A stretch of 64,000 nt of DNA from Spirochaetales bacterium (GTDB lineage Bacteria > Spirochaetota > Spirochaetia > SZUA-6 > JAFGRV01), in assembly GCA_016930085.1 (NCBI GenBank), contig JAFGHO010000034.1, positions 1-64,000 of the forward strand. The letters are read 5' to 3'. The notes beneath the pieces were generated by a model. The model was not told where the DNA came from and ran no database searches. It worked only from the letters and a program-made list of their open reading frames with translations. Positions 16,786 to 63,202 of this stretch are shown here, one piece after another. Within the stretch, counting starts at the first letter, position 1; every line of letters starts with the position of its first letter. Made by a program: the position numbers and the translations under genes.

Positions 16786-17059
16786 AAATGCCGCATCCAA
16801 AGAAATAGCCCCAATAACAGTTACCCTGTTCGGCCCGCAGGGTTATTCGATTTCTGCCGAAAACCGTATACCGTGACCCGGACCTGTATCGTGACCATGA
16901 AGGGCGGGAGGATACATGCTTGTTGACAAACAGGCTGTTCTGTGCAATAATGTGCTGTACGATGTGCTTCCGGAAAGTGGGGTAATTCGGTAATCGGTCC
17001 ATAACCCGCTGATAAAACGGTATTCTTTTACGACACGATACATACATTCAGGCTTGAAA

Positions 17060-18571
17060 ATGATTAATATCGAAGAGTATGTTCCACTGAAAGACGAACT
17101 GAATCTGCTATATAAACAACACGGAAAATATAAAACAGGGAAAGGGAATACCGGGGAAAGTGGTTTTCCAGAGAAAATCAGCTTTCCAATGGAAAGCCCG
17201 CATATTCCCGCCCGTGACGAACAGGCATCTCCATTACTTCCCGCATATATTATTTCAAATGCACTATCGATTCCCCTTGATATTTATCGCACATGTATCC
17301 TGGTCCTCAAGGGTATGTGGGAAACCTCACATGAGAAAACCAAGTCGGGAAACGGGAACAGGCCGTTAAGCCGTGAGGATACAGACGGCGAAAAGGAACA
17401 CCAGGGTATACGCTTCAAGCCGGACGTAAGCGGTTTATACCCCCTCATCCGCGAGGCTTCCCTGGAACTTATCCGAAATTCCGCTACACTTGAAGAGAGT
17501 GAAAAGTGTCAGTTCGGCGATTTTGATGAAAAATCACTGCATCACCTCCTTCAGGAAATGCTCCTTACAAAAATCTATTTTTTTTCCATCAATTCGAAAG
17601 AAGTTGAAGATTTTATCAGGAAAAAAAAAGACGAATACGAACTCCTGAAGCAGGCGCCGGAGAAACTCAAACAGGAGTACTGGCTTGCGCGGTGTGTCTG
17701 GGTTGAACTGCAGGAGGAACTTTCCGAACTGCTTATGCTGCTGGAATCCGCACGCCTTAAAAATGCCTATATTGTCCGGGAGTTTCTGCATGTGTTCGGG
17801 GAGTGTTATATCTCACTGAAAGAGCAGATCATACGGGTTCTTTCCCTCAAACGCCGTCTTCTGCTCAAGGAAACCCACCCCGGGTGGTCCATACACGATA
17901 TCGATGAGAAGGTGAAAAAACTCGGAGACGAAGAGGAAGCGGAAATGGAGAAACTCAAATTCAACGCGAAAATGGCGTGTTTTGTTCATGAAGTCAAACC
18001 GGGTAAACCCATCAATGACCAGACACTCAATGAATACAAAAAAAAGGTAAAAACGGTACTTCGCCAGATTTATTTTATCCTTCATCCACACAGACTGATG
18101 CATCACCCGCAGTTTCAAACGCTGACGGAAAAACAGCGTAATCACCTGATGAAACTCTGGGACAGGGTAATGGAAATCAGACAGCACGAACTGCGCTATC
18201 CTGAAGGCACGGTCGGTCATTATATGCATTCACTCGAAAAACTCCTTTCGCTGCGCGACAAGGCGGATAAAATTCTCTCGCATTCCGGTCTCCGCGTTAA
18301 CGTGAACTATATCATTGCCGGAGACACCATCGAAGAACGTATCGCGTGGCTTGAAAACGAGATCAAACAGCTTGAAAAGGATATTCAATATACACGCGAT
18401 GAAATCATGGCTTTTCAAAACAATAAGGACATTCTGGAGAAAAAAGCGGCACTCTCATGCCCGGCGCGACACGAACAGGTGAAAGTGGAGATGCATAAAC
18501 GTGCGGTCGAGTTGAAAAGCGAAGCCGAGGAACTCGAATCGACATACCGGCTGTTGTTTGAGAAAAATTGA
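17060..18571 (+). CDS. Coiled-coil protein with degenerate J-domain-like segment
   Basis: Not a recognised family. The 503-residue protein is helical and charged, with coiled-coil stretches around residues 200-300 and 430-500 (for example EELLMLLESARLKNAY and ERIAWLENEIKQLEKDI). Residues about 325-375 resemble helices II and III of a DnaJ domain: KVKTVLRQIYFILHPHRL followed by LTEKQRNHLMKLWDRVMEIR. The invariant HPD of functional J domains is HPH here. I chose the ATG at 17060 over a TTG at 17054. It precedes the WD40 gene by about 80 bases and the ClpA-like gene beyond, all rightward, suggesting a common role in handling proteins. No signal peptide or membrane segment. Confidence 0.65.
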   Translation: MINIEEYVPLKDELNLLYKQHGKYKTGKGNTGESGFPEKISFPMESPHIPARDEQASPLLPAYIISNALSIPLDIYRTCILVLKGMWETSHEKTKSGNGNRPLSREDTDGEKEHQGIRFKPDVSGLYPLIREASLELIRNSATLEESEKCQFGDFDEKSLHHLLQEMLLTKIYFFSINSKEVEDFIRKKKDEYELLKQAPEKLKQEYWLARCVWVELQEELSELLMLLESARLKNAYIVREFLHVFGECYISLKEQIIRVLSLKRRLLLKETHPGWSIHDIDEKVKKLGDEEEAEMEKLKFNAKMACFVHEVKPGKPINDQTLNEYKKKVKTVLRQIYFILHPHRLMHHPQFQTLTEKQRNHLMKLWDRVMEIRQHELRYPEGTVGHYMHSLEKLLSLRDKADKILSHSGLRVNVNYIIAGDTIEERIAWLENEIKQLEKDIQYTRDEIMAFQNNKDILEKKAALSCPARHEQVKVEMHKRAVELKSEAEELESTYRLLFEKN

Positions 18572-18652
18572 TTCTTTTATGGCCCCGCATTCGTTTAATC
18601 CGCCGTGGCCGGTTTTTTTAAAAGCGCAGGAACGCGCCGCAGGGAAAAAGGA

Positions 18653-21600
18653 ATGAATACCCCGAATAATAAAAAGGATAACGGGAAGGACCTCGCCCTA
18701 TCACGGGAAACACGAATCAGCCTTCTCGATGAACAGCAACAAATCTTTTCGTTATGCAATATCAAGGCGAGAAACACCATGCACCGGGTGGGGGGACATT
18801 CCGACTGGATACGGGATATCGCATTCACATACGACAACGAAAGAATAGTGTCCGGAAGTGATGATTGTACCGCCCGGCTTTGGGACACAAAAACGGGCAC
18901 CTCATTAATGGTGTACCGGGGCCATACCGATACCGTACGAGCGGTCGCAATTCATCCCGATAACACAATATTGGCGACAGGGAGTTGGGATACGACAATT
19001 CGCCTATGGATGCTTGAAACGGGGAAATGTATCAAGATTTTGAAAGGGCATACAGCCCGAATACGGTCGATCCTTTTCAGTCCCGACGGGAACTATCTTT
19101 TTTCGGGAAGCGAGGATAATTCGATTAGAAAGTGGTTGGTCGCCGATGGTGAATGTGCCGGCGTATTTCTCGGCCATAAGAAGGCCGTACGGACAATTAT
19201 ATCATCAGGCTGCGGTAACTATATATTTTCCGGGGGCGAAGATTCCCTCATCCTGCAATGGGATACCTCAAACGGCGAATGTCTCTGTGAAATAAAGGGA
19301 CATCAAGGGGAGGTATTCACGCTTTGTCTTTCATCGGATAACTCATTGTTATTCTCCGGCGGACGGGATCGAATAATCAGGATTTGGGATTGTGCGAGTC
19401 GAACATGCAGGAAAAAATTGAGGGGCCATAAAAACTGGGTAATGTCCTTGTGCCTTCATCCCGATGGGAAAAGGCTTTTAAGCGGCGATCTTGACGGGGT
19501 TGTAAAAATATGGGATATCGGTGAAGGGACCACCTCGTTTACCTATGGCGGACCGACATGGGGGGTCAACGGAGTACGGTTTTTAAATGACGGCGGGTAT
19601 TGCCTTTTTTGTTCGGAACACCGCGTGTCCCTTCTTCATATCGCAACGGGGAACGTCATCCGGGATTTCAAGGGGCATATCAAGAATGTCGCAACGATTT
19701 ATTGCAATAAAAGGAATACGCTTCTCGCTACGGGGGGATGGGACGGGGTGATCAATCTGTGGAACCTCTCAAACGGCCGCCGTATCTTTACATTGACCCA
19801 CAATAAAACAAAAGGAAGCGGTATCCTCTCCGTTTTCATCAGCCGGGACGACCGGTATCTTTGTGCGGGGAGTGACAACGGGTATATAATGGTCTGGAGT
19901 CTGAAAAGCGGCAGGTGTATTCGAGTGATCAGAACAAGCGTCGATAACATTCATGGGGTCTGTTTCACTGCGGACAACAACCATATCATCATCTGTTGCA
20001 GGGAACTCTATGACAATATTGTGATGTTCGATATTAAAACCGGCGAGATGGTCCGGCAATTCTGGGGCCATGAAAACACCGTTTTCGCCATCGATATAAG
20101 CGATGACGGGAAGTACCTCGCATCGGGGAGTGCGGACAATACCGCACGTGTATGGAATATCGAAACAGGCGCCTGTATCGCGACCTTAAGAAATCACACC
20201 GACTGGGTCGAGACCGTCCGGTTCAGCCGCGACGGGCGTTATCTCCTGACGGGCGGCTGTGATCTTCTGGTCAGACTTTTTGATATCGAAACGGAAAGTC
20301 TTGTCAGGGAATATTCTGGTTCCACACACACAATCTACTCCGTCGATATTGACGGGGAAGCGACCATGATCATTGCGGGCGGGAATGACAAGATGATACG
20401 TATCTGGGATAAAACAACAGGAAAGGTGATAAAGCAATACAAGGGAAATGATTACCAACTGTACGCGGCGCGATTCGACAGAACCGGAACATTTCTCGTA
20501 ACAGGGGGCAAATACTCACTCAAGCGCTGGGAATTGGATTCGGGGATACGTGTGCAAGAATACACCGGTTTTTCAAACAGTATTTGTGCCATGCATGTCA
20601 ATCCATACACCCGTGAACTCGTTATCGGAAGCTGGGAGTTCGGTGCAAAAAAAATCAACATTGAAAAGGCCGCGGTAACCATGACCTACCGTTACTGCAT
20701 GTCGGCGACGCACGCGGTATTCCTGAGTACCTCAGGCGAACGGCTGGTCGCGGGGGGACGGTGCGTACTCACCAACCTGCTCGATGCGCGGACCGGCAGG
20801 CAGCTTCGCTGGTTCGAACACGGTAAATGCGTCAATGCCGTCATCCTCAATGCCAGGGGAGACAGGCTTTTTACCGCGTGTTCGGATCATCTTGCCAGGC
20901 AGTGGGATATCAACCTCATCGAATGTGTCGTCACCTACAGGGGACATAGAAGCGCCGTCTTTGACATTAAACTCAGCAGGGATGAAACCAGATTGTATAC
21001 CGCCGGGAGGGACGGAACGATAAGGCAATGGGATGTTCGGCAGGGTATCTGTTTAAATACATTGTATGGCCATGATGGAGATATCAACACCCTCCTTCTG
21101 AGCTGGGATGAGTTTTCCATCTTTTCCGGATCAAAAGACCGTACAATCCGGGAATGGGATATTTCGAGCGGTGTGTGCCGCAGGACGATCGATACCGAAG
21201 ATGAAATTACCGCATTAAGCCTGACAATGGACGGAACAAAAATAATCAGCGGAACGGCCTGCGGAATGATTGAAATGCGACACAGGGACGACGGGGGGCG
21301 CCTTTGGTTTCGCCTGGAACATGATGGCGGAATAAGCGGACTGGCGGTTTTGGATGAGAGGAATATGATCATCTCATCGAGTTATGACGGTACCGTTAAA
21401 TTCTGGACGCTCGATACGGGAGAACTCCGCGCATCGTATCATAATATTAATGAAGGATTTCTCTGGACGAGTCCTCCGGATAAATGTGCTCCTTTCGGCC
21501 GTTTCTGGACAGACAGGAGGGATATTATCGGGGTGATGGAATGCGAAGAAGACGGAAACAATCCATCGATTATTCCGGCAAACCATCCTGAGAGGGACTC

Positions 21601-21733
21601 CTATATGCGAATATACAACAACAAGGAGGCGATCCTGAAACGCATCAATACAAGGATACTCGCGCAGGAAAGATCGGATATCCATTATTGTGTCGAAGCC
21701 GAAAGCAAACGCCTTGATTTCAAGGGGGGATAA
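18653..21733 (+). CDS. Large WD40-repeat protein, 21 repeats
   Basis: I count 21 WD40-type blades, most with the GH...[V/I]...W-D pattern (for example GHSDWIRDIAFTYD...ARLWD, GHTDTVRAVAIHPD...IRLWM, GHRSAVFDIKLSRD...IRQWD). Twenty-one fits three seven-bladed propellers. Repeats 7, 9, 10, 15, 16 and 20 are degenerate. No kinase, NACHT or caspase domain is attached; the first 45 and last 100 residues are non-repetitive. No signal peptide, so a cytoplasmic scaffold is likely. I prefer the ATG at 18653 (AGGGA and AAGGA upstream) to a GTG at 18605. The stop is 11 bases before the start of the ClpA-like gene, so the propeller protein may present substrates to that unfoldase (inference). Confidence 0.9.
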   Translation: MNTPNNKKDNGKDLALSRETRISLLDEQQQIFSLCNIKARNTMHRVGGHSDWIRDIAFTYDNERIVSGSDDCTARLWDTKTGTSLMVYRGHTDTVRAVAIHPDNTILATGSWDTTIRLWMLETGKCIKILKGHTARIRSILFSPDGNYLFSGSEDNSIRKWLVADGECAGVFLGHKKAVRTIISSGCGNYIFSGGEDSLILQWDTSNGECLCEIKGHQGEVFTLCLSSDNSLLFSGGRDRIIRIWDCASRTCRKKLRGHKNWVMSLCLHPDGKRLLSGDLDGVVKIWDIGEGTTSFTYGGPTWGVNGVRFLNDGGYCLFCSEHRVSLLHIATGNVIRDFKGHIKNVATIYCNKRNTLLATGGWDGVINLWNLSNGRRIFTLTHNKTKGSGILSVFISRDDRYLCAGSDNGYIMVWSLKSGRCIRVIRTSVDNIHGVCFTADNNHIIICCRELYDNIVMFDIKTGEMVRQFWGHENTVFAIDISDDGKYLASGSADNTARVWNIETGACIATLRNHTDWVETVRFSRDGRYLLTGGCDLLVRLFDIETESLVREYSGSTHTIYSVDIDGEATMIIAGGNDKMIRIWDKTTGKVIKQYKGNDYQLYAARFDRTGTFLVTGGKYSLKRWELDSGIRVQEYTGFSNSICAMHVNPYTRELVIGSWEFGAKKINIEKAAVTMTYRYCMSATHAVFLSTSGERLVAGGRCVLTNLLDARTGRQLRWFEHGKCVNAVILNARGDRLFTACSDHLARQWDINLIECVVTYRGHRSAVFDIKLSRDETRLYTAGRDGTIRQWDVRQGICLNTLYGHDGDINTLLLSWDEFSIFSGSKDRTIREWDISSGVCRRTIDTEDEITALSLTMDGTKIISGTACGMIEMRHRDDGGRLWFRLEHDGGISGLAVLDERNMIISSSYDGTVKFWTLDTGELRASYHNINEGFLWTSPPDKCAPFGRFWTDRRDIIGVMECEEDGNNPSIIPANHPERDSYMRIYNNKEAILKRINTRILAQERSDIHYCVEAESKRLDFKGG

Positions 21734-21743
21734 ACGAACGAAC

Positions 21744-23912
21744 ATGACGACACTTTACGATCTGAAAAAGATGTGCCAAGAAATGTACCCGGAGAAGCCT
21801 CCCGATATGATGCTTCTTCTCATTGTCTGGGCAACCGGAAAAAAGAGGGACGAACTGGATAACCTTCTTGAGAACTCGGGACTCTCGCTCGATGAGTTTA
21901 TCGTTACCCTCATGCCTTTCCTCGATACCCCTCAACCGGAAAACGATAACCTACTCACTTCATGTATCCTGGCTGCAACGGATGGACCGGTTTACGGTGT
22001 CAATCTTCTCCACATGCTCGCAGAGAAACCGGAAAACAGGCTGCATGCCGTTTTGGTAAAGGCGGGCCTCGATATATCGATCTTCAAAAGGAATATCGAA
22101 GCGGCCCTCGCTGCAAAATCCGGCATTCTCACCGCGCACGGCATCGCTTTGAAGGATCATTCCGGTACACTGCTTCAATACGGACGGGATCTTACACTGC
22201 TTGCTCGCCAGGGGGAATTCGACGCGCTTTGCGACCGGCCGGTCGAGATCGACCGTCTTTTAGAGGTACTGCTTCGAAAACAAAAGGCGAATCCGGCATT
22301 GACGGGGCCGGCCGGTGTCGGGAAAACGGCACTGGTCGAGCTTTTTGCGCGATATCTGGTGAATACGGACAATCTCCCCCTCCCCCTCAAAGGAACGGGG
22401 CTCTTTGAAGTGAGTATGGGAAGACTCGTTGCAGGAACGAAATACCGGGGTGATTTCGAAGAGCGTATGACACGGATTATCGAAGAGGTGCAAAAGCGGA
22501 AGCCCTCCATTCTTTTCATTGATGAAATGCATCTCATCTGGGGGGCGGGAAGGGCCGAAGGTGTTACTACCGACGCGGCCAACATTCTGAAACCGTTTCT
22601 CGGCAGGGGGGCACTCCGCCTTATCGGCGCCACCACGGTGCAAGAATTCCACCGCACCATTACACAGGATACGGCCCTGGCGCGGCGTTTTCAGGAAATC
22701 CGGCTTGCCGAACCCGATTCCGGTCTGACGGCCGAGATGGTCGGAAGTCAGGCATACGAGTTGAGCCGCTACCATGGTGTTGATATCCCGGATGACATCG
22801 TTCATGAAGCAATACGGCTTACCGACCGTCATCTCCCAGGCAGGTTCCAGCCCGATAAAAGCGTCGATCTTCTTGATTCGGCGTGCGTCAATGTCGTACG
22901 GAACGGAAAGGACCGGGTGACCGTGGACGATCTTCTTCACACCCTTTCACGCCAGACCGCCAGACCGATCACTTCTCCTTCCGCCGACTTGAGACATGAA
23001 CTCAGGAATCTCGGTGCGGAATTGAGACGCCGCATTGTCGGACAGGACGAGGCGATCGAACGGGTTGTGGCCACCTTCGTTCACCGGCGGTTCGATCTGG
23101 GTCCGGAAGAAAAAAATCTCGGTTCGTTTCTTTTTGCCGGCCGGACGGGAGTCGGCAAGACGGAACTGGCGAAAAGTATCGCGGATGTGTTTTTTAACGG
23201 GCGCCATTCGCTTCTCGTTATCGATTGCGCCGAATACAGCCAGACCGGCGGGATAAACAACCTCATCGGGAGCCCGCAGGGATACGTGGGAAGCGAAAAG
23301 GAGGGGATGTTTGCCGAATGGGTTCACATGACGGGAAGCGGAGTGATTCTGTTCGATGAAATCTCCAAAGCGCATCCGGAACTTCACAAACTGATCCTCG
23401 GCCTGCTGGACACCGGGAGAATCACAAGCAGCAAGGGGGAACGACTCGATTGCCGGCAGTGCATGATCGTGCTTACCACCAACGCGCTGAAAACGGAGGA
23501 TCTCCAGCGTGAAAATATCGGATTTGCCCGGTCCGCTTCACATCCCGAGATCACCGAAATTCTTTCGGATCATTTTCCCATGGAAATGCTCGCGCGGCTG
23601 GACGAGCACATTCTCTTCAATCCCCTGAGTGACGGGGATATGAAGCGTATTATTCTGATTCGCATGGAAGAGGCGGCAAACCGGATGAAAAAACAGGGGA
23701 TCACTCTCGTCTACGACGACAACGCGGCGAGTGATTTTCTCATCGGATTTCTGAAAAAGAACCGGACAGGGGCGCGCGGCGTCGAACGCCTTATCGAAAA
23801 GAAAATTCTCCAGCCGGTTTCACGGGCACTTCTTTATCATGAAGGGGAAAGGGGAAACGAAGTCGTCCTGGGAGGTGATTTTTATTCTTCCGGAACTATC
23901 GAGATACACTAA
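21744..23912 (+). CDS. ClpA-like double AAA+ unfoldase
   Basis: About 722 residues. The N-terminal 150 look like a divergent Clp N-domain. AAA+ domain 1 has Walker A GPAGVGKT (188-195), pore loop KYRGDFEE, Walker B ILFIDE and sensor GATT. Domain 2 has Walker A GRTGVGKT (466-473), pore loop GYVGSEKEG, Walker B VILFDE and sensor-2 GARGVER. There is no ClpB coiled-coil middle domain between them. ENIGFARSASHPEITEIL places an IGF tripeptide (592-594) where ClpA has its ClpP-binding IGL loop, so docking to ClpP is plausible. The start at ATG 21744 avoids overlap with the WD40 gene; a GTG at 21690 is possible. Last gene before a strong terminator. Confidence 0.85.
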   Translation: MTTLYDLKKMCQEMYPEKPPDMMLLLIVWATGKKRDELDNLLENSGLSLDEFIVTLMPFLDTPQPENDNLLTSCILAATDGPVYGVNLLHMLAEKPENRLHAVLVKAGLDISIFKRNIEAALAAKSGILTAHGIALKDHSGTLLQYGRDLTLLARQGEFDALCDRPVEIDRLLEVLLRKQKANPALTGPAGVGKTALVELFARYLVNTDNLPLPLKGTGLFEVSMGRLVAGTKYRGDFEERMTRIIEEVQKRKPSILFIDEMHLIWGAGRAEGVTTDAANILKPFLGRGALRLIGATTVQEFHRTITQDTALARRFQEIRLAEPDSGLTAEMVGSQAYELSRYHGVDIPDDIVHEAIRLTDRHLPGRFQPDKSVDLLDSACVNVVRNGKDRVTVDDLLHTLSRQTARPITSPSADLRHELRNLGAELRRRIVGQDEAIERVVATFVHRRFDLGPEEKNLGSFLFAGRTGVGKTELAKSIADVFFNGRHSLLVIDCAEYSQTGGINNLIGSPQGYVGSEKEGMFAEWVHMTGSGVILFDEISKAHPELHKLILGLLDTGRITSSKGERLDCRQCMIVLTTNALKTEDLQRENIGFARSASHPEITEILSDHFPMEMLARLDEHILFNPLSDGDMKRIILIRMEEAANRMKKQGITLVYDDNAASDFLIGFLKKNRTGARGVERLIEKKILQPVSRALLYHEGERGNEVVLGGDFYSSGTIEIH

Positions 23913-23914
23913 AT

Positions 23915-23943
23915 AAAGCCGCCCCCGGCCGGGACGGCTTTTC
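23915..23943 (+). terminator. Rho-independent terminator after the ClpA-like gene
   Basis: AAAGCCGCCCCCGGCCGGG and then ACGGCTTTT form a GC-rich hairpin with a single internal mismatch and a short T run, starting three bases after the stop codon. It closes the three-gene J-like/WD40/ClpA-like unit. Confidence 0.8.
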
Positions 23944-26873: not shown

Positions 26874-28364
26874 ATGCCGGACTTATTGCTGAATCCGGTT
26901 ATCCGGATTCTCCTCATATTCGTTCTTCCCCTTTTCATCATTCCCCTGATTATGCGGTTCATCGTCGGTCGTATCGTTCTTTTTTTTGTAAGGAGGAAAT
27001 TTCTTCCGGCCTACCTGAAAAAACTCTATAGGGGCTGGGAAACGAGTGACGACCGGTCAGCAATCGAAGCGATACAAAAACTCGCGTTTCAACGCCTTCG
27101 GGCGCATTTTATTTTCAAACCCCTCCTCGTGGAGGACATCAAGGCCATATTAATCAGCATCAAAAATACATACAATCCCGAGGCGGACCGGGAAAAACTT
27201 ACATTTTCATTCAGTATCGTACGGCTCATGGAATGCTCCCTTCTCGCGTTTTCCGATCTCTACCGGGAATTCGGCGACGCGATGTGGTTCAAACTCATCA
27301 AAAATATACGGATTATCTGGTTCTACCGCGTATGGAATCTGAAGAAATTTTATGAACTTGTTTTTTCGATTCCTTTTATCGACCGTCTGAGGCGCACGCG
27401 CGTCATCGGTAAACTGATACGCGCCGCACTTATCCCGATCCTCGGTATACCCACACTCATCTGGTATGTCGCCCGTTCAATCGTCATCAGTGTTTTTTTC
27501 GAATCCTTTTTCCGTTTTTTCTACGCACTCATCCTCATGAAAGCCGGCTATTACGCGATCTATCTCTATGGAAAAAAAAACACCCATATCAGTAAACGAA
27601 TCAAAAGCATCCCGAAAAAAAAACTCGGTGAACTGAATTCCCGGATAGAGGAAATGATCAAGCCGTCTTTGTGGCGGGAAAAAAGCAGCCGTTATCCCGC
27701 GGCGTCGCGTCTTTATCGCGAACTTCTTACGGAATTCGGGATTACGCGGGATGCGTCGGTTGAGGAAATCAAAGAGAATCCGTTCGGCACAACGAAGACG
27801 ATTCTCCGCCGGATCGCCTCGTCATTTAAAAAAGCATATCAAAAGCAGAATCCATTCTACCGGAACAGAGAAAACGATAAACTCAAACTCCTCAGGCTTT
27901 ACCGGGAAATTGCCGGCGTTTATGTTCCGGGAACGAATGAACCGTTTCAATATCTGCGGCTCGAGGAATTGATCGCGACCGGCTATATGGCGAGTGTCCT
28001 GATTCTCCACAAGGTATTGACGACGCCGGGGATAAGGCTTCTTCTCGATAAAATATCCGGGGATTTCGCGATTACCCTTACCTCACTCGTCTCTCATGAG
28101 GCGGTAAAAGCCGGCTTCAAAGGGGCGAAAGACGCATATAAATACTACCGGCTTTATCGTTTGGGTTCACGGGCATGGAGAGTCGTGAGGGGAATCGTTT
28201 CTCCGTACACACTCATATGGACCCTGGGAAGCCCCGTCCTTTTTCAGCAGTTACAGGATCTATTGAAAGAATACGCGGCCCACAGGATCGGAAGACTCAT
28301 GCTGTATTGCTGGGAATCACATATACTCAAGACTAAAATGACGATAATACCGATCCTCTGGTAA
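26874..28364 (+). CDS. Hypothetical membrane-associated protein
   Basis: Not recognised. The N-terminus is a strong membrane segment (IRILLIFVLPLFIIPLIMRF) and a second hydrophobic block lies near residues 190-230 (LIPILGIPTLIWYVARSIVI and SFFRFFYALILMKAGYYAIY). The intervening and C-terminal parts are basic and helical. A hydrophobic stretch near residue 370 (GYMASVLILHKVL) and another near the C-terminus could be peripheral or additional spans. The gene ends one base from the stop of the converging GGDEF/EAL gene. No functional inference is justified. Confidence 0.65.
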   Translation: MPDLLLNPVIRILLIFVLPLFIIPLIMRFIVGRIVLFFVRRKFLPAYLKKLYRGWETSDDRSAIEAIQKLAFQRLRAHFIFKPLLVEDIKAILISIKNTYNPEADREKLTFSFSIVRLMECSLLAFSDLYREFGDAMWFKLIKNIRIIWFYRVWNLKKFYELVFSIPFIDRLRRTRVIGKLIRAALIPILGIPTLIWYVARSIVISVFFESFFRFFYALILMKAGYYAIYLYGKKNTHISKRIKSIPKKKLGELNSRIEEMIKPSLWREKSSRYPAASRLYRELLTEFGITRDASVEEIKENPFGTTKTILRRIASSFKKAYQKQNPFYRNRENDKLKLLRLYREIAGVYVPGTNEPFQYLRLEELIATGYMASVLILHKVLTTPGIRLLLDKISGDFAITLTSLVSHEAVKAGFKGAKDAYKYYRLYRLGSRAWRVVRGIVSPYTLIWTLGSPVLFQQLQDLLKEYAAHRIGRLMLYCWESHILKTKMTIIPILW

Positions 28365-47372: not shown

Positions 47373-47408
47373 AAGACGGAAAGAAAGAGTGATTCAGGAG
47401 GCTTTTTG

Positions 47409-49442
47409 ATGGCAAACAAACCACCGAAGTTTTTTAAGAAACGGTTTACCGAAAAGCAGTTCAATAAAAAGATTCTAAAAAGGACATTCGATGAAAAGGA
47501 GAAAGAAAGGCTTTTTTCGCTTTTTATTAAAGATAACGACGCTAACTATACCCTCAAAGATGATCTTGCAAAGGAAGATATAAACCAATTAAAAAGAATT
47601 CATAAAACAATAAAGAAGAATACGGGGGTTGTTCAAAAGGGAAAAATAATCGTCGCTTCAGCCATTATCGGTGTCGTGGTCGTCTTTAATGTATTTTTCA
47701 GAGACATGCTGCTCGAAGGCGCCCTTGAATCTTCTCTTTCTTCCCTCTTCGGCGCGAAAGCGGAGATTGACGGACTCGTCTTCGATATATTCGGGGCACG
47801 AATATCGTTTGAGCATTGTTCTGTTGCCAACAGTGAAAAACCTTACAAAAACCTCTTTGAACTGGGTAGAACCGGAATCGATCTATTAATGAGCGAGCTC
47901 CTGAAAGGGAAGTTTATTGTGACGAATATCGAATGCCGGGAGATACAATGGGATACCGCCCGTAACACATCCGGTGCACTCGTTAGTTCACGGGAAAAGG
48001 AAAACGGGGGAGAAAGCCCGGAAGAGGGTGCACAACCTTTTTCACTCAATATGGCGGGGACCGATATCGGGTCTATTATTGAATCGGAAAAAGAGAATAT
48101 CAAAAGTCCCGAAAGAATCGAGGAGGCGAACAGGCTTTTTGCCGAAATGACGGAAGAATGGAGACAAACGGCAGACGGGCTTGAACCTGCCGTCAACGAC
48201 TGTTCGAAAGCGGTTTTAGAAGTGACGAAAATCGATATCAAGAAAATCAAAACGCTCAAGGATGTCGAGAAAGCGTACGCGACAATCGATAAGGCGACAA
48301 AACTTGTTTCTGAAACAGGTAGATCGATATCGGAAACTGCGGACAAGGTCGGCAAGGACCGCGCTGTTATCGACGAAGAACGAAAAAAAATCACCGATGC
48401 GATCGATTCGGATACAGCCTATCTGATGTCGTTCGTCGCGGCACCGCGTGAAGGGGCCGAAAGAATAATTTCAAGCGTATCCGAAAAATTCCTCGCGGCA
48501 AATCTTGGAGAACTGCATACATACCTGTTCAAGGGAATCGATGCATTACAACATCTTGACAGCGGGAAAAAGGGAAGAAAGGGGCAGCCGCCTCCGAGAT
48601 CGGGCTACAACATGCAATATCCGGGCAGCCGCTATCCCGATTTTATGATCGTGAACGCGGCCTTTTCTGTGGGAAGCGACGCAGGTACGACGCAGACTGC
48701 CGTTCAACTGGCAAATATCTCGAATGCTCCGGAACTCGTCGACTCACCATCCGCCATACGATTTGTCCATAACGAATATGACCGGAAGGTCGAACTGGAC
48801 GGTACAATCGATCTGAGGGAAACAGTCGATGATCTTGTTTCGTTTGATATAAAAATATCGGGATTTCCGCTATCCATCGACAAAGGATTGGAACTCATCG
48901 GTATCGCATCACTCGACGCGACAATATACTTCTCAACCGGTATCCGGGTTGACAAGGCGGACAAAACGGCCGGATCTCTCGAGTTGATACTTACCGATAC
49001 GAACGCGTCGATGCGGAATACCGACAATATTGTCTTTGAAAATATACGCGATATTCTTGAGTCCGCGTCTGAAATCGCCATAAACGCATCATACTCGTTT
49101 TCTTCGGGCGGGAAACTGTCGATCACCGCCGGTAGTTCAATCGACCGCCTCATCAAAGAAAAAGTCGGTGATGCGATCGACCGTATGATAAAGGAAACCA
49201 AAGAAAAGATCGGGAATGAAATCGAGAAACAGATCGCCGGGTCGTTACAAAAAAACAACACACTCGTCGCCGCCTTTGAGGGGGTGGAAAAAACACTTGA
49301 AGCGAATAGGTCCGATATTGCGGCATTCGAAAAGACAATCGATGAAAAGAAAAAAAGCGTGGAGAAAAAAGCGAAAGACTTTTCAAAAGACCTTGAAAAA
49401 AAGGTACAGGAGTCTCTTCCAAAGCTCGATTTGAAATTTTAG
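47409..49442 (+). CDS. TIGR03545-type protein
   Basis: A 677-residue protein. After a cytoplasmic basic and charged stretch of about 75 residues there is one membrane span (KIIVASAIIGVVVVFNVFF), then a large extracytoplasmic part. This includes an AsmA-like beta segment (LEGALESSLSSLFGAKAEID and EISFEHCSVANS-like), coiled coil near residues 220-360, another beta region and a long C-terminal coiled coil (EKKKSVEKKAKDFSKDLEKK). This is the TIGR03545 type, paired with TIGR03546. It starts at ATG 47409 with AGGAGG upstream. The AsmA-like resemblance hints at lipid or outer-membrane transport (inference). Confidence 0.75.
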   Translation: MANKPPKFFKKRFTEKQFNKKILKRTFDEKEKERLFSLFIKDNDANYTLKDDLAKEDINQLKRIHKTIKKNTGVVQKGKIIVASAIIGVVVVFNVFFRDMLLEGALESSLSSLFGAKAEIDGLVFDIFGARISFEHCSVANSEKPYKNLFELGRTGIDLLMSELLKGKFIVTNIECREIQWDTARNTSGALVSSREKENGGESPEEGAQPFSLNMAGTDIGSIIESEKENIKSPERIEEANRLFAEMTEEWRQTADGLEPAVNDCSKAVLEVTKIDIKKIKTLKDVEKAYATIDKATKLVSETGRSISETADKVGKDRAVIDEERKKITDAIDSDTAYLMSFVAAPREGAERIISSVSEKFLAANLGELHTYLFKGIDALQHLDSGKKGRKGQPPPRSGYNMQYPGSRYPDFMIVNAAFSVGSDAGTTQTAVQLANISNAPELVDSPSAIRFVHNEYDRKVELDGTIDLRETVDDLVSFDIKISGFPLSIDKGLELIGIASLDATIYFSTGIRVDKADKTAGSLELILTDTNASMRNTDNIVFENIRDILESASEIAINASYSFSSGGKLSITAGSSIDRLIKEKVGDAIDRMIKETKEKIGNEIEKQIAGSLQKNNTLVAAFEGVEKTLEANRSDIAAFEKTIDEKKKSVEKKAKDFSKDLEKKVQESLPKLDLKF

Positions 49443-60940: not shown

Positions 60941-63202
60941 TTAAAACCATCGCTTTGTAATGGAAGCGATGCCCTTTGCCTCATTGACGATCACGAGCGA
61001 TTGATTGTAACGATGCGCGATCTTTTCCTGGAAAGAGAGTTTTTTCACGTTATAGCTATGTTTACGGGCAATAATCCCGAGAACGAGCAAATCATGCCCT
61101 TCAGCCTCTTCCAGAACCGCCTTGGTATTGTCCTGTATCGTCGTCATTTTTGCTTTGATGCCGGATCTCTCCGTTTTTCTGATAAGTTCTTTAACGTACC
61201 GCTCGGACGGCATGTCCTTATTGCTTCCCCGCAAAAGGAGAAGGGTGATTTCCCCTTCAGATTCAGTGAGGCTGTCGGCGATTCGCAGGGCATAACCGTC
61301 ATTCGAAGATCCGAAAATCGGGACGAGAACTCTATAGAATTTCCTGTTGCCGCAATCCTTCAGAATGACAATATCACAGGGACTGCGGGATATCACTTTG
61401 TCGAGGGTGCTTCCCATGACAAACCGCTTGTCCACCCTGCTGCCGTGCCATCCCATAATGAGAAGATCGACCCTTTTCTCCCTCACAGCGCTCACGATAC
61501 CGCGGGCTATGTTTCTGCAATGCCTGACCGCCGTGGTGACGGGAAAACGGGGCATAAGATAAAGCATTGCCTCGACAATCCCCTCTTTCCCCTCGAGTAC
61601 GTACTTTTCAGCATCACTCAGGGCAATCTGATCCGGTACCGCGACCATATGAAGGAGATCGATCCGGGCGTCCCGGTTTCTGCTGAGTTTTATCGTCGTG
61701 CCGACGAGAGAAAGGGCGTTATTCGGATTCGCGATGGGCACCATCACACGGTATTTGTCTCCCGCCGGTTCCTCGATTTCCTCTTCTATGACGACGATCT
61801 CACTCTCCGAAGGGACGACCCGCGATTTCGAATAAAAATGGTAGATAACGATTCCCGCAGCAATCCAGCACGGGGCGATAATCCATGCGAGCCAACTCAT
61901 GTGAATGAGAAAAACGGCAAGCAACGCCTGTGCGCCTATCGCCAGGAGGGGAAACAAAGGGAAAAAAGGCATGACAAAGCCGTAGGTGAGTTCATCGCCC
62001 ATGTTGAGTCTGATCCGTATCACGCAAATATTGACGAGGAAAAAAAGAAAGAGAAACATGATACTCGCACTCGAGGCGACATCCTTGGTAGGAAGCAGCA
62101 CCGCATTACAAAGAATGATGACCCCTGAAAAAACAAGCGCATACGAGGGTGTTTTTCTCTTTTTGGAAATCTTCGCAAAAACGGCGGGAAGCATTCTGTC
62201 CCGGCCCAAAGCGTATGAAGCGCGGGCGGCGGAAAATATCGTCGCGTTCAGTGCCGATGTCGAGGCAAAAATAACGGCAAGGGTAAGGAAGAAATTACCG
62301 AACGGGAAAAGCCTTTCAATCGCCTTTTTGAATCCCATCTCGCCGAACTGCCCTATCCATTCCCATACGGGAAAGGTTATATCCGGATGGTTCGCGTTCA
62401 CCGCAACGACCGAAGCGAAACTTACCAGAATATAGGTAATCCCGACAATAAAAACCGAATAGATCATCGCTTTCGGCAGGTTTTTCCGCGGGGCGATCGC
62501 TTCATCGCCGGCCTGGGAAATCACCTCGAATCCCTCGAAAGCGACATAGGTAAATCCCATCGCGATAAATAAATTAAGCCAGCCTTTCGGCATGAAGGGT
62601 TTGAAGTTGAGAAGCCGCTCGGGATTGGTCGCGGCAATATAAAGACCGACACCTCCGATAAACAGAAGAAAAATGGTTTGACCGAGGGTCATAACGGCAC
62701 CGATAAACCCGGTTTCCGAGGCGCCGCGGTAATTGATATAAATAAAAAAAAGCGCGATCAGAATCGTCACACCCTTTTCAAGACAGGGACCCAAGGAAAG
62801 GGGCAGCCAGAAAAGGAGACCGAGGTCTTTCAGGTATTCCAGCGTATATTTTGAAAAGGTGATCGCGTAGATGCTTCCCGCGACACTCGATGCAAACCAT
62901 TCGATCCAGCCGGCGCTAAAGCTTATTCCCCTTCCGAACCCGATGCGAGCAAAATTATACGCGCCGCCCGCCCGGGGGACGGCGGAGCTGAGTTCGGCGT
63001 ATGAAAAAGCCGTTCCCGTTGCCAGTATCGTATTGAGGGCGAACGTGAGAACGATCCCGCCGGGTCCGACAAAGGGTATCGCCTTACCGATTCCCAGAAA
63101 CACTCCGGCGCCGATCATCATACCGATGCCCATCATGGTCAGCTGGAAAAGGGTGAGTTCCCTCGAAAGCTCGTACGTTACCTTATGAGGATTTTCCGCC
63201 AT
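60941..63202 (-). CDS. APC-family amino acid permease with two Usp domains
   Basis: The N-terminal about 470 residues form a twelve-span APC permease: ELTLFQLTMMGIGMMIGAGV at the first helix and AFEGFEVISQAGDEAIAPRK in the conserved loop after helix 6. The C-terminal 280 residues hold two universal stress protein domains. The first keeps the ATP-binding pattern G-2x-G-9x-G-S (GWHGSRVDKRFVMGS); the second lacks it (LGIIARKHSYN). Usp domains on permeases probably sense nucleotides or stress and tune transport. Substrate unknown. The small membrane protein gene overlaps its start by 20 bases. Confidence 0.9.
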   Translation of the reverse strand: MAENPHKVTYELSRELTLFQLTMMGIGMMIGAGVFLGIGKAIPFVGPGGIVLTFALNTILATGTAFSYAELSSAVPRAGGAYNFARIGFGRGISFSAGWIEWFASSVAGSIYAITFSKYTLEYLKDLGLLFWLPLSLGPCLEKGVTILIALFFIYINYRGASETGFIGAVMTLGQTIFLLFIGGVGLYIAATNPERLLNFKPFMPKGWLNLFIAMGFTYVAFEGFEVISQAGDEAIAPRKNLPKAMIYSVFIVGITYILVSFASVVAVNANHPDITFPVWEWIGQFGEMGFKKAIERLFPFGNFFLTLAVIFASTSALNATIFSAARASYALGRDRMLPAVFAKISKKRKTPSYALVFSGVIILCNAVLLPTKDVASSASIMFLFLFFLVNICVIRIRLNMGDELTYGFVMPFFPLFPLLAIGAQALLAVFLIHMSWLAWIIAPCWIAAGIVIYHFYSKSRVVPSESEIVVIEEEIEEPAGDKYRVMVPIANPNNALSLVGTTIKLSRNRDARIDLLHMVAVPDQIALSDAEKYVLEGKEGIVEAMLYLMPRFPVTTAVRHCRNIARGIVSAVREKRVDLLIMGWHGSRVDKRFVMGSTLDKVISRSPCDIVILKDCGNRKFYRVLVPIFGSSNDGYALRIADSLTESEGEITLLLLRGSNKDMPSERYVKELIRKTERSGIKAKMTTIQDNTKAVLEEAEGHDLLVLGIIARKHSYNVKKLSFQEKIAHRYNQSLVIVNEAKGIASITKRWF

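Follow-up and report, generated by a model that had tools for sequence, protein, structure and literature searches.

A Clp-type double-AAA+ protein with linked WD40 and helical partners in a three-gene cassette of uncultured Spirochaetales

Three adjacent genes of an uncultured spirochaete, encoding a helical protein, a WD40 protein of 21 blades and a Clp-type double-AAA+ protein, represent a new, narrowly distributed version of Clp-type unfoldase systems, whose dedicated partners are unusual. Because the three genes co-occur in every carrier found, the trio is probably one undescribed machine that selects and unfolds, and perhaps destroys, particular proteins. More specifically, we give about one chance in two to the reading that it is an operon for a dedicated remodelling machine, in which the helical protein would link the ring to a WD40 receptor or platform and the unfolded chain would probably be handed to ClpP. 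Small proteins (ClpS, MecA, SspB) are the adaptors with which bacterial Clp unfoldases are known to work. If the reading is true, coupling a Clp-type ring to a WD40 platform of 1000 residues would confer specificity on it in a new manner. The trio is confined so far to a few uncultured spirochaetes, which limits the reach of the finding until more carriers are found.

The cassette and its carriers

The window, that is the whole stretch of 64,000 nucleotides that was analysed, belongs to a draft genome of 5.36 Mb in 135 contigs. The first-pass annotation had described three co-directional genes followed by a single terminator, and this description stands: all three reading frames lie on the + strand between 17060 and 23912, with intergenic gaps of 81 and 10 bp (Table 1), and a pattern match places a GC hairpin (23915-23941) directly 3' of the last stop. 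The helical gene starts at ATG 17060 and the AAA+ gene at ATG 21744, 10 bp past the WD40 stop; for the WD40 gene the best start is ATG 18653, behind AAAAAGGA, with GTG 18605 as a longer alternative. The site found upstream of the trio (16923-16951) is sigma-70-like, with an 11/12 match and an extended -10, in a sequence where such promoter-like sites are no more frequent than after shuffling (6 found, 8.1 expected). Upstream of the trio lies an arginine-synthesis cluster (argB, argD and argG recognized by eye, then an acetyltransferase by Pfam).

Table 1. Features of the cassette, in window coordinates
Feature	Position	Strand	Description	Basis
Promoter-like site	16923..16951	+	TTGACA-17-AATAAT, TG before second hexamer	pattern match only
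Helical protein gene	17060..18571	+	503 aa; J-like helix-HPH-helix segment in C-terminal third; predicted long C-terminal helix	ORF, orthologues
HPH codons	18083..18091	+	residues 342-344 of helical protein, where J domains have HPD	sequence
WD40 protein gene	18653..21733	+	1026 aa; 21 blades (about residues 48-931); partly conserved C-terminal tail	Pfam WD40, repeat profile, blade-wise conservation, orthologues
Clp-type double-AAA+ unfoldase gene (predicted)	21744..23912	+	722 aa; without middle domain; N-terminal 142-residue domain	Pfam, NCBIfam, tree, orthologues
IGF tripeptide	23517..23525	+	residues 592-594 of AAA+ protein, at the ClpA/ClpX ClpP-docking loop	sequence, alignment
GC-rich hairpin	23915..23941	.	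probable terminator	pattern match and sequence

A search for the same trio in other genomes had been set beforehand as a test, and it placed the AAA+ gene alongside its WD40 and helical companions in all three carriers. Besides the source genome these are two Spirochaetales MAGs from the family to which it belongs, Zod_Metabat.749 (G002, contig 62, JAFGQK010000334.1) and Zod_Metabat.855 (G004, contig 488, JAFGRV010000380.1), where the order of the genes is the same; the three genomes span two genera. Identity to the window proteins is 51 and 49% for the helical orthologues, 54 and 54% for the WD40 orthologues, 65 and 64% for the AAA+ orthologues. The junctions between WD40 and AAA+ genes are near or overlapping in the carriers. 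In G002 and G004 the arginine cluster lies on other contigs and the trio is flanked by other genes. A cassette of constant order and content in changed surroundings is good evidence of joint function.

The distribution is narrow. The helical gene is present in three of five genomes of the family, being absent from the two further ones (84 and 87% complete), and neither the 21 remaining genomes of the order nor 391 more sampled across the phylum yielded it. When 84,980 species genomes were scanned by pattern, a search that reaches close relatives best and may have missed distant ones, the G002 and G004 loci were the only ones returned. Nowhere in the genomes searched does the helical gene occur without its WD40 and AAA+ companions. 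It had been remarked at the outset that no system so composed was known to have been described, and the literature yielded no matching paper.

A separate AAA+ lineage with a ClpP-docking loop

The AAA+ protein was first presented as a double AAA+ unfoldase without a ClpB middle domain, and the models agree: Pfam and NCBIfam find two AAA modules with no room for that domain, and the match to the ClpA model is a single continuous one (ClpA positions 162-731) that shows no insertion between AAA-1 and AAA-2. The coiled-coil middle domain that a ClpB/Hsp104 disaggregase has between the two modules is absent. Walker A and B motifs, arginine fingers and sensors are present in all three orthologues, which also keep the pore-loop tyrosines (KYRG in AAA-1, GYVG or GYIG in AAA-2). 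What these motifs do is well established, and by motif the protein is predicted to be an active unfoldase.

Resemblance to the ClpA of ClpAP lies in the two modules without middle domain, the identity of about 35% over them and the hydrophobic-G-F/L docking loop. However, the trio protein reaches half the equivalog score (470 and 503 bits against NCBIfam TIGR02639, with a cut-off of 993), where the canonical ClpA of the source genome scores 924 bits from its AAA part alone. It also differs from ClpA in having no recognizable Clp_N domain, in not lying beside clpS (the usual, not obligatory, place of clpA) and in being tied to WD40 and helical genes. The source genome has its own clpA-clpS pair (G000:C93); on these scores and this pair, identity as ClpA was rejected.

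A tree of 36 Clp-type proteins puts the trio proteins of the three carriers in a clade by themselves, with full support and on a very long branch, and the tree programme warns that their joining with the long-branch TPR-Clp proteins may be false. As judged from this tree they are a deep separate lineage, and it is only separateness that we claim. TPR-Clp is itself worth a mention. Its gene (L043:9107-11953) lies on contig 34 of the source genome at about 73.1-76.0 kb, just outside the window, and codes for a double AAA protein with an LGF docking loop; the clade is separate and well supported, and five further genomes of the order (L017, L018, L023, L046, L050) also encode members. Like the trio protein, it is a Clp-type double AAA protein of separate lineage with an (L/I/V)GF loop, and its N-domain is replaced, as that of the trio protein may also be; unlike the trio protein, it bears N-terminal TPR repeats, and no WD40 or helical partner is seen beside its gene.

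Residues 1-142 of the trio AAA+ protein are poorly conserved (34%), and residues 1-149 have no Pfam match, Clp_N included, so that the known mode of adaptor docking cannot be assumed. A remnant of Clp_N is possible: comparison with the Clp_N profile gives a weak likeness (P about 0.005 over 27-36 columns), and the match to the ClpC profile begins at residue 87.

The IGF tripeptide that the first-pass annotation had placed at the ClpA loop position is borne out by alignment: codons 23517-23525 fall on the ClpA loop, opposite the IGF that the phylum's ClpA proteins carry. Comparison across orthologues, also proposed then, gives VGF in both G002 and G004. The consensus for ClpP docking is (L/I/V)-G-(F/L) (PMC8745299), and VGF docks ClpE to ClpP (PMC13125188); the IGF and VGF of the trio both fit. 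Only 32% of the residues of the docking loop are invariant in the three orthologues, yet GF is kept, with I or V before it. VGF, the motif of the trio proteins of G002 and G004, is shared with the ClpC/ClpE unfoldases, which work with ClpP and small adaptors such as MecA, and like them the trio protein would work with partner proteins; by contrast, it has no middle domain, and its linked partner is a giant WD40 protein rather than a small adaptor. Full-length ClpP genes exist in all carriers, with no extra full-length copy when compared with non-carriers. The trio AAA+ protein possibly hands its substrates to ClpP.

The WD40 and helical partners

Pfam WD40 matches the second protein of the cassette with 439 bits (cut-off 27) over 15 stretches. 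When the three orthologues are used to build a repeat profile, it picks up 19-20 repeats directly, about 42 residues apart; the positions still missing lie between these direct matches, which brings the blade starts to 21. The count of 21 blades made at first reading is thereby recovered, and the repeat spacing makes three 7-blade propellers the natural reading. No signal peptide is seen by eye at the N-terminus. Conservation varies from blade to blade: blade 16 stands out with 76% of its residues invariant, blades 2, 12 and 21 follow with 62-64% (62% for blade 12), while blades 4, 8, 19 and 20 are low, with 29-36%. Some non-canonical blades (16, 12) are better conserved than the canonical blades 4, 8 and 19 (36%). 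As the conserved blades are partly non-canonical WD repeats, this pattern suggests that the protein bears a specific binding surface.

The helical protein had been credited with a DnaJ helix II-III pattern, with HPH in place of HPD, against the background that J domains bring substrates to Hsp70. The pattern fared unevenly. HPH is invariant in the three orthologues, as are its surroundings (LHPHRLMH). The helix II-III pattern is weak: PF00226 (DnaJ) does not match, and PF14687 (DUF4460) matches below its cut-off in 3/3 orthologues. In a profile comparison with 26 genuine J domains from these genomes, 17 of 200 column shuffles did as well, a result near shuffle level. Against a degenerate J family, which these genomes also encode and whose signature is LHPDN...ELWYxVQEAY, none of 200 shuffles was as good (P about 0.003); next to the DUF4460 matches, this is the main positive result. 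AF2 predicts the whole protein as all-helical with a mean pLDDT of 48, which is unusable, and the J-like segment as a helical bundle of generic kind, at a mean pLDDT of 68. Fold searches with the segment gave a best E of 0.65 in Foldseek and, in VIA-align, Z up to 10 for generic helical bundles only; no J domain is among the fold matches listed for this low-confidence model, which proves nothing. A J-domain origin is weakly supported.

As for Hsp70, its stimulation depends on the HPD aspartate, and the loss of this residue in all three orthologues makes it unlikely that the helical protein works as a J protein. The idea of a J protein operating with Hsp70 was rejected on the invariant HPH and the failed DnaJ match. 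A conserved HPH where HPD is expected would rather suggest that a J-like part has been reused for a role other than Hsp70 stimulation. The degenerate J family with the LHPDN signature occurs in four genomes of the spirochaete family (L045:1860-3275 on the - strand, L120, L121, L122); its members are long and combine an acidic, D-rich region with a J domain that scores below the Pfam cut-off.

The proposed machine and its competitors

In the machine that we favour, the AAA+ protein would assemble as a hexameric ring, threading and unfolding proteins with its two pore loops, and the WD40 protein would be the substrate receptor or platform that selects them. The helical protein, with its degenerate J-like segment, would link this receptor to the ring, probably via the divergent domain at the N-terminus of the AAA+ protein, and the three would be physically associated; the unfolded chain would probably pass to the general ClpP of the cell through the IGF/VGF loops. 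That no more than three orthologous loci are known counts against the model. In its favour, the order of the trio is kept in three genomes with changed flanks, and the WD40 protein provides the set with a large binding platform. Against the ClpP step in particular, ClpP is there for ClpA anyway, and hydrophobic-G-F is a short motif. A more pointed version, an undescribed ClpP-type degradation machine with a triple-propeller WD40 substrate receptor and the degenerate J-like protein as linker, is tentative and would have to be called somewhat unlikely; the trio WD40 protein would then work as the WD40 substrate receptors of eukaryotic proteolysis do. Neither of the two findings named beforehand as refuting the first reading turned up: in no carrier does the AAA+ gene lie apart from its WD40 and helical partners, and the docking tripeptide is not lost in the relatives. 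Of the reading first offered, linkage, docking loop and want of a described equivalent are retained, while the Hsp70 J protein is not.

The main rival, unlikely in our view and the strongest of those considered, is a remodeller independent of ClpP, in which the ring disassembles or matures one complex held by the WD40 protein and IGF/VGF is a relic. ClpV acting on the sheath of the type VI secretion system (T6SS) and TRIP13 acting on Mad2-p31comet would be its analogues, and in eukaryotic remodelling AAA+ ATPases commonly have WD40 cofactors. A deep separate lineage, an N-terminal domain without assigned kind, a dedicated large scaffold and no ClpP of its own would all suit such a remodeller, whereas a relic sits ill with a docking tripeptide retained by three of three orthologues in a fast-changing loop.

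It is improbable that the trio is an anti-phage or conflict system, the WD40 protein sensing an invader upon which the ring acts. The nearest published idea is that of the MoxR-vWA-beta-propeller ternary systems (Kaur et al., 2020; PMC7159879), which likewise couple an AAA+ ATPase with beta-propeller proteins in one operon; their logic, the patchy presence in 3/5 genomes of the family and the finding of the same cassette in different places all speak for a defence role. However, those systems combine a MoxR-type AAA, a vWA protein and a propeller of about four blades, where the trio has a Clp-type double AAA, 21 blades and no vWA. The helical protein has no vWA match, and the AAA+ protein matches ClpA and ClpB best. 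Nor does the trio show an effector domain; PADLOC hits are only to generic AAA and repeat models and give no supporting match to a defence system, and the neighbours (arginine synthesis, a phosphate-type binding protein, a glycerol-kinase-like gene) are not defence genes. Plasmids and viral contigs yielded no relatives of the helical protein, and the plasmid proteins closest to the AAA+ protein share only 35-39% identity with it over the AAA part and, where annotated, are ClpA.

Very little credit can be given to an Hsp70-coupled disaggregase, with the helical protein recruiting DnaK as a J protein and the AAA+ protein working like ClpB: the helix II-III resemblance to the degenerate J family, unmatched in 200 shuffles, would fit, but HPH replaces HPD in 3/3 orthologues, PF00226 does not match, and the middle domain that ClpB requires for DnaK is absent. 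That three unrelated genes are neighbours by chance is barely credible, few as the known genomes are, with trio and order kept at 49-65% identity in three genomes while the flanks changed.

Elsewhere in the window, three reading frames deserve a note. A predicted protein of 496 aa (26874-28364) is hydrophobic at its N-terminus and matches no Pfam family above cut-off; an ORF of 678 aa (47406-49442) has no Pfam match at 1e-6; and at 60941-63202 an amino-acid permease is fused to a universal stress protein domain.
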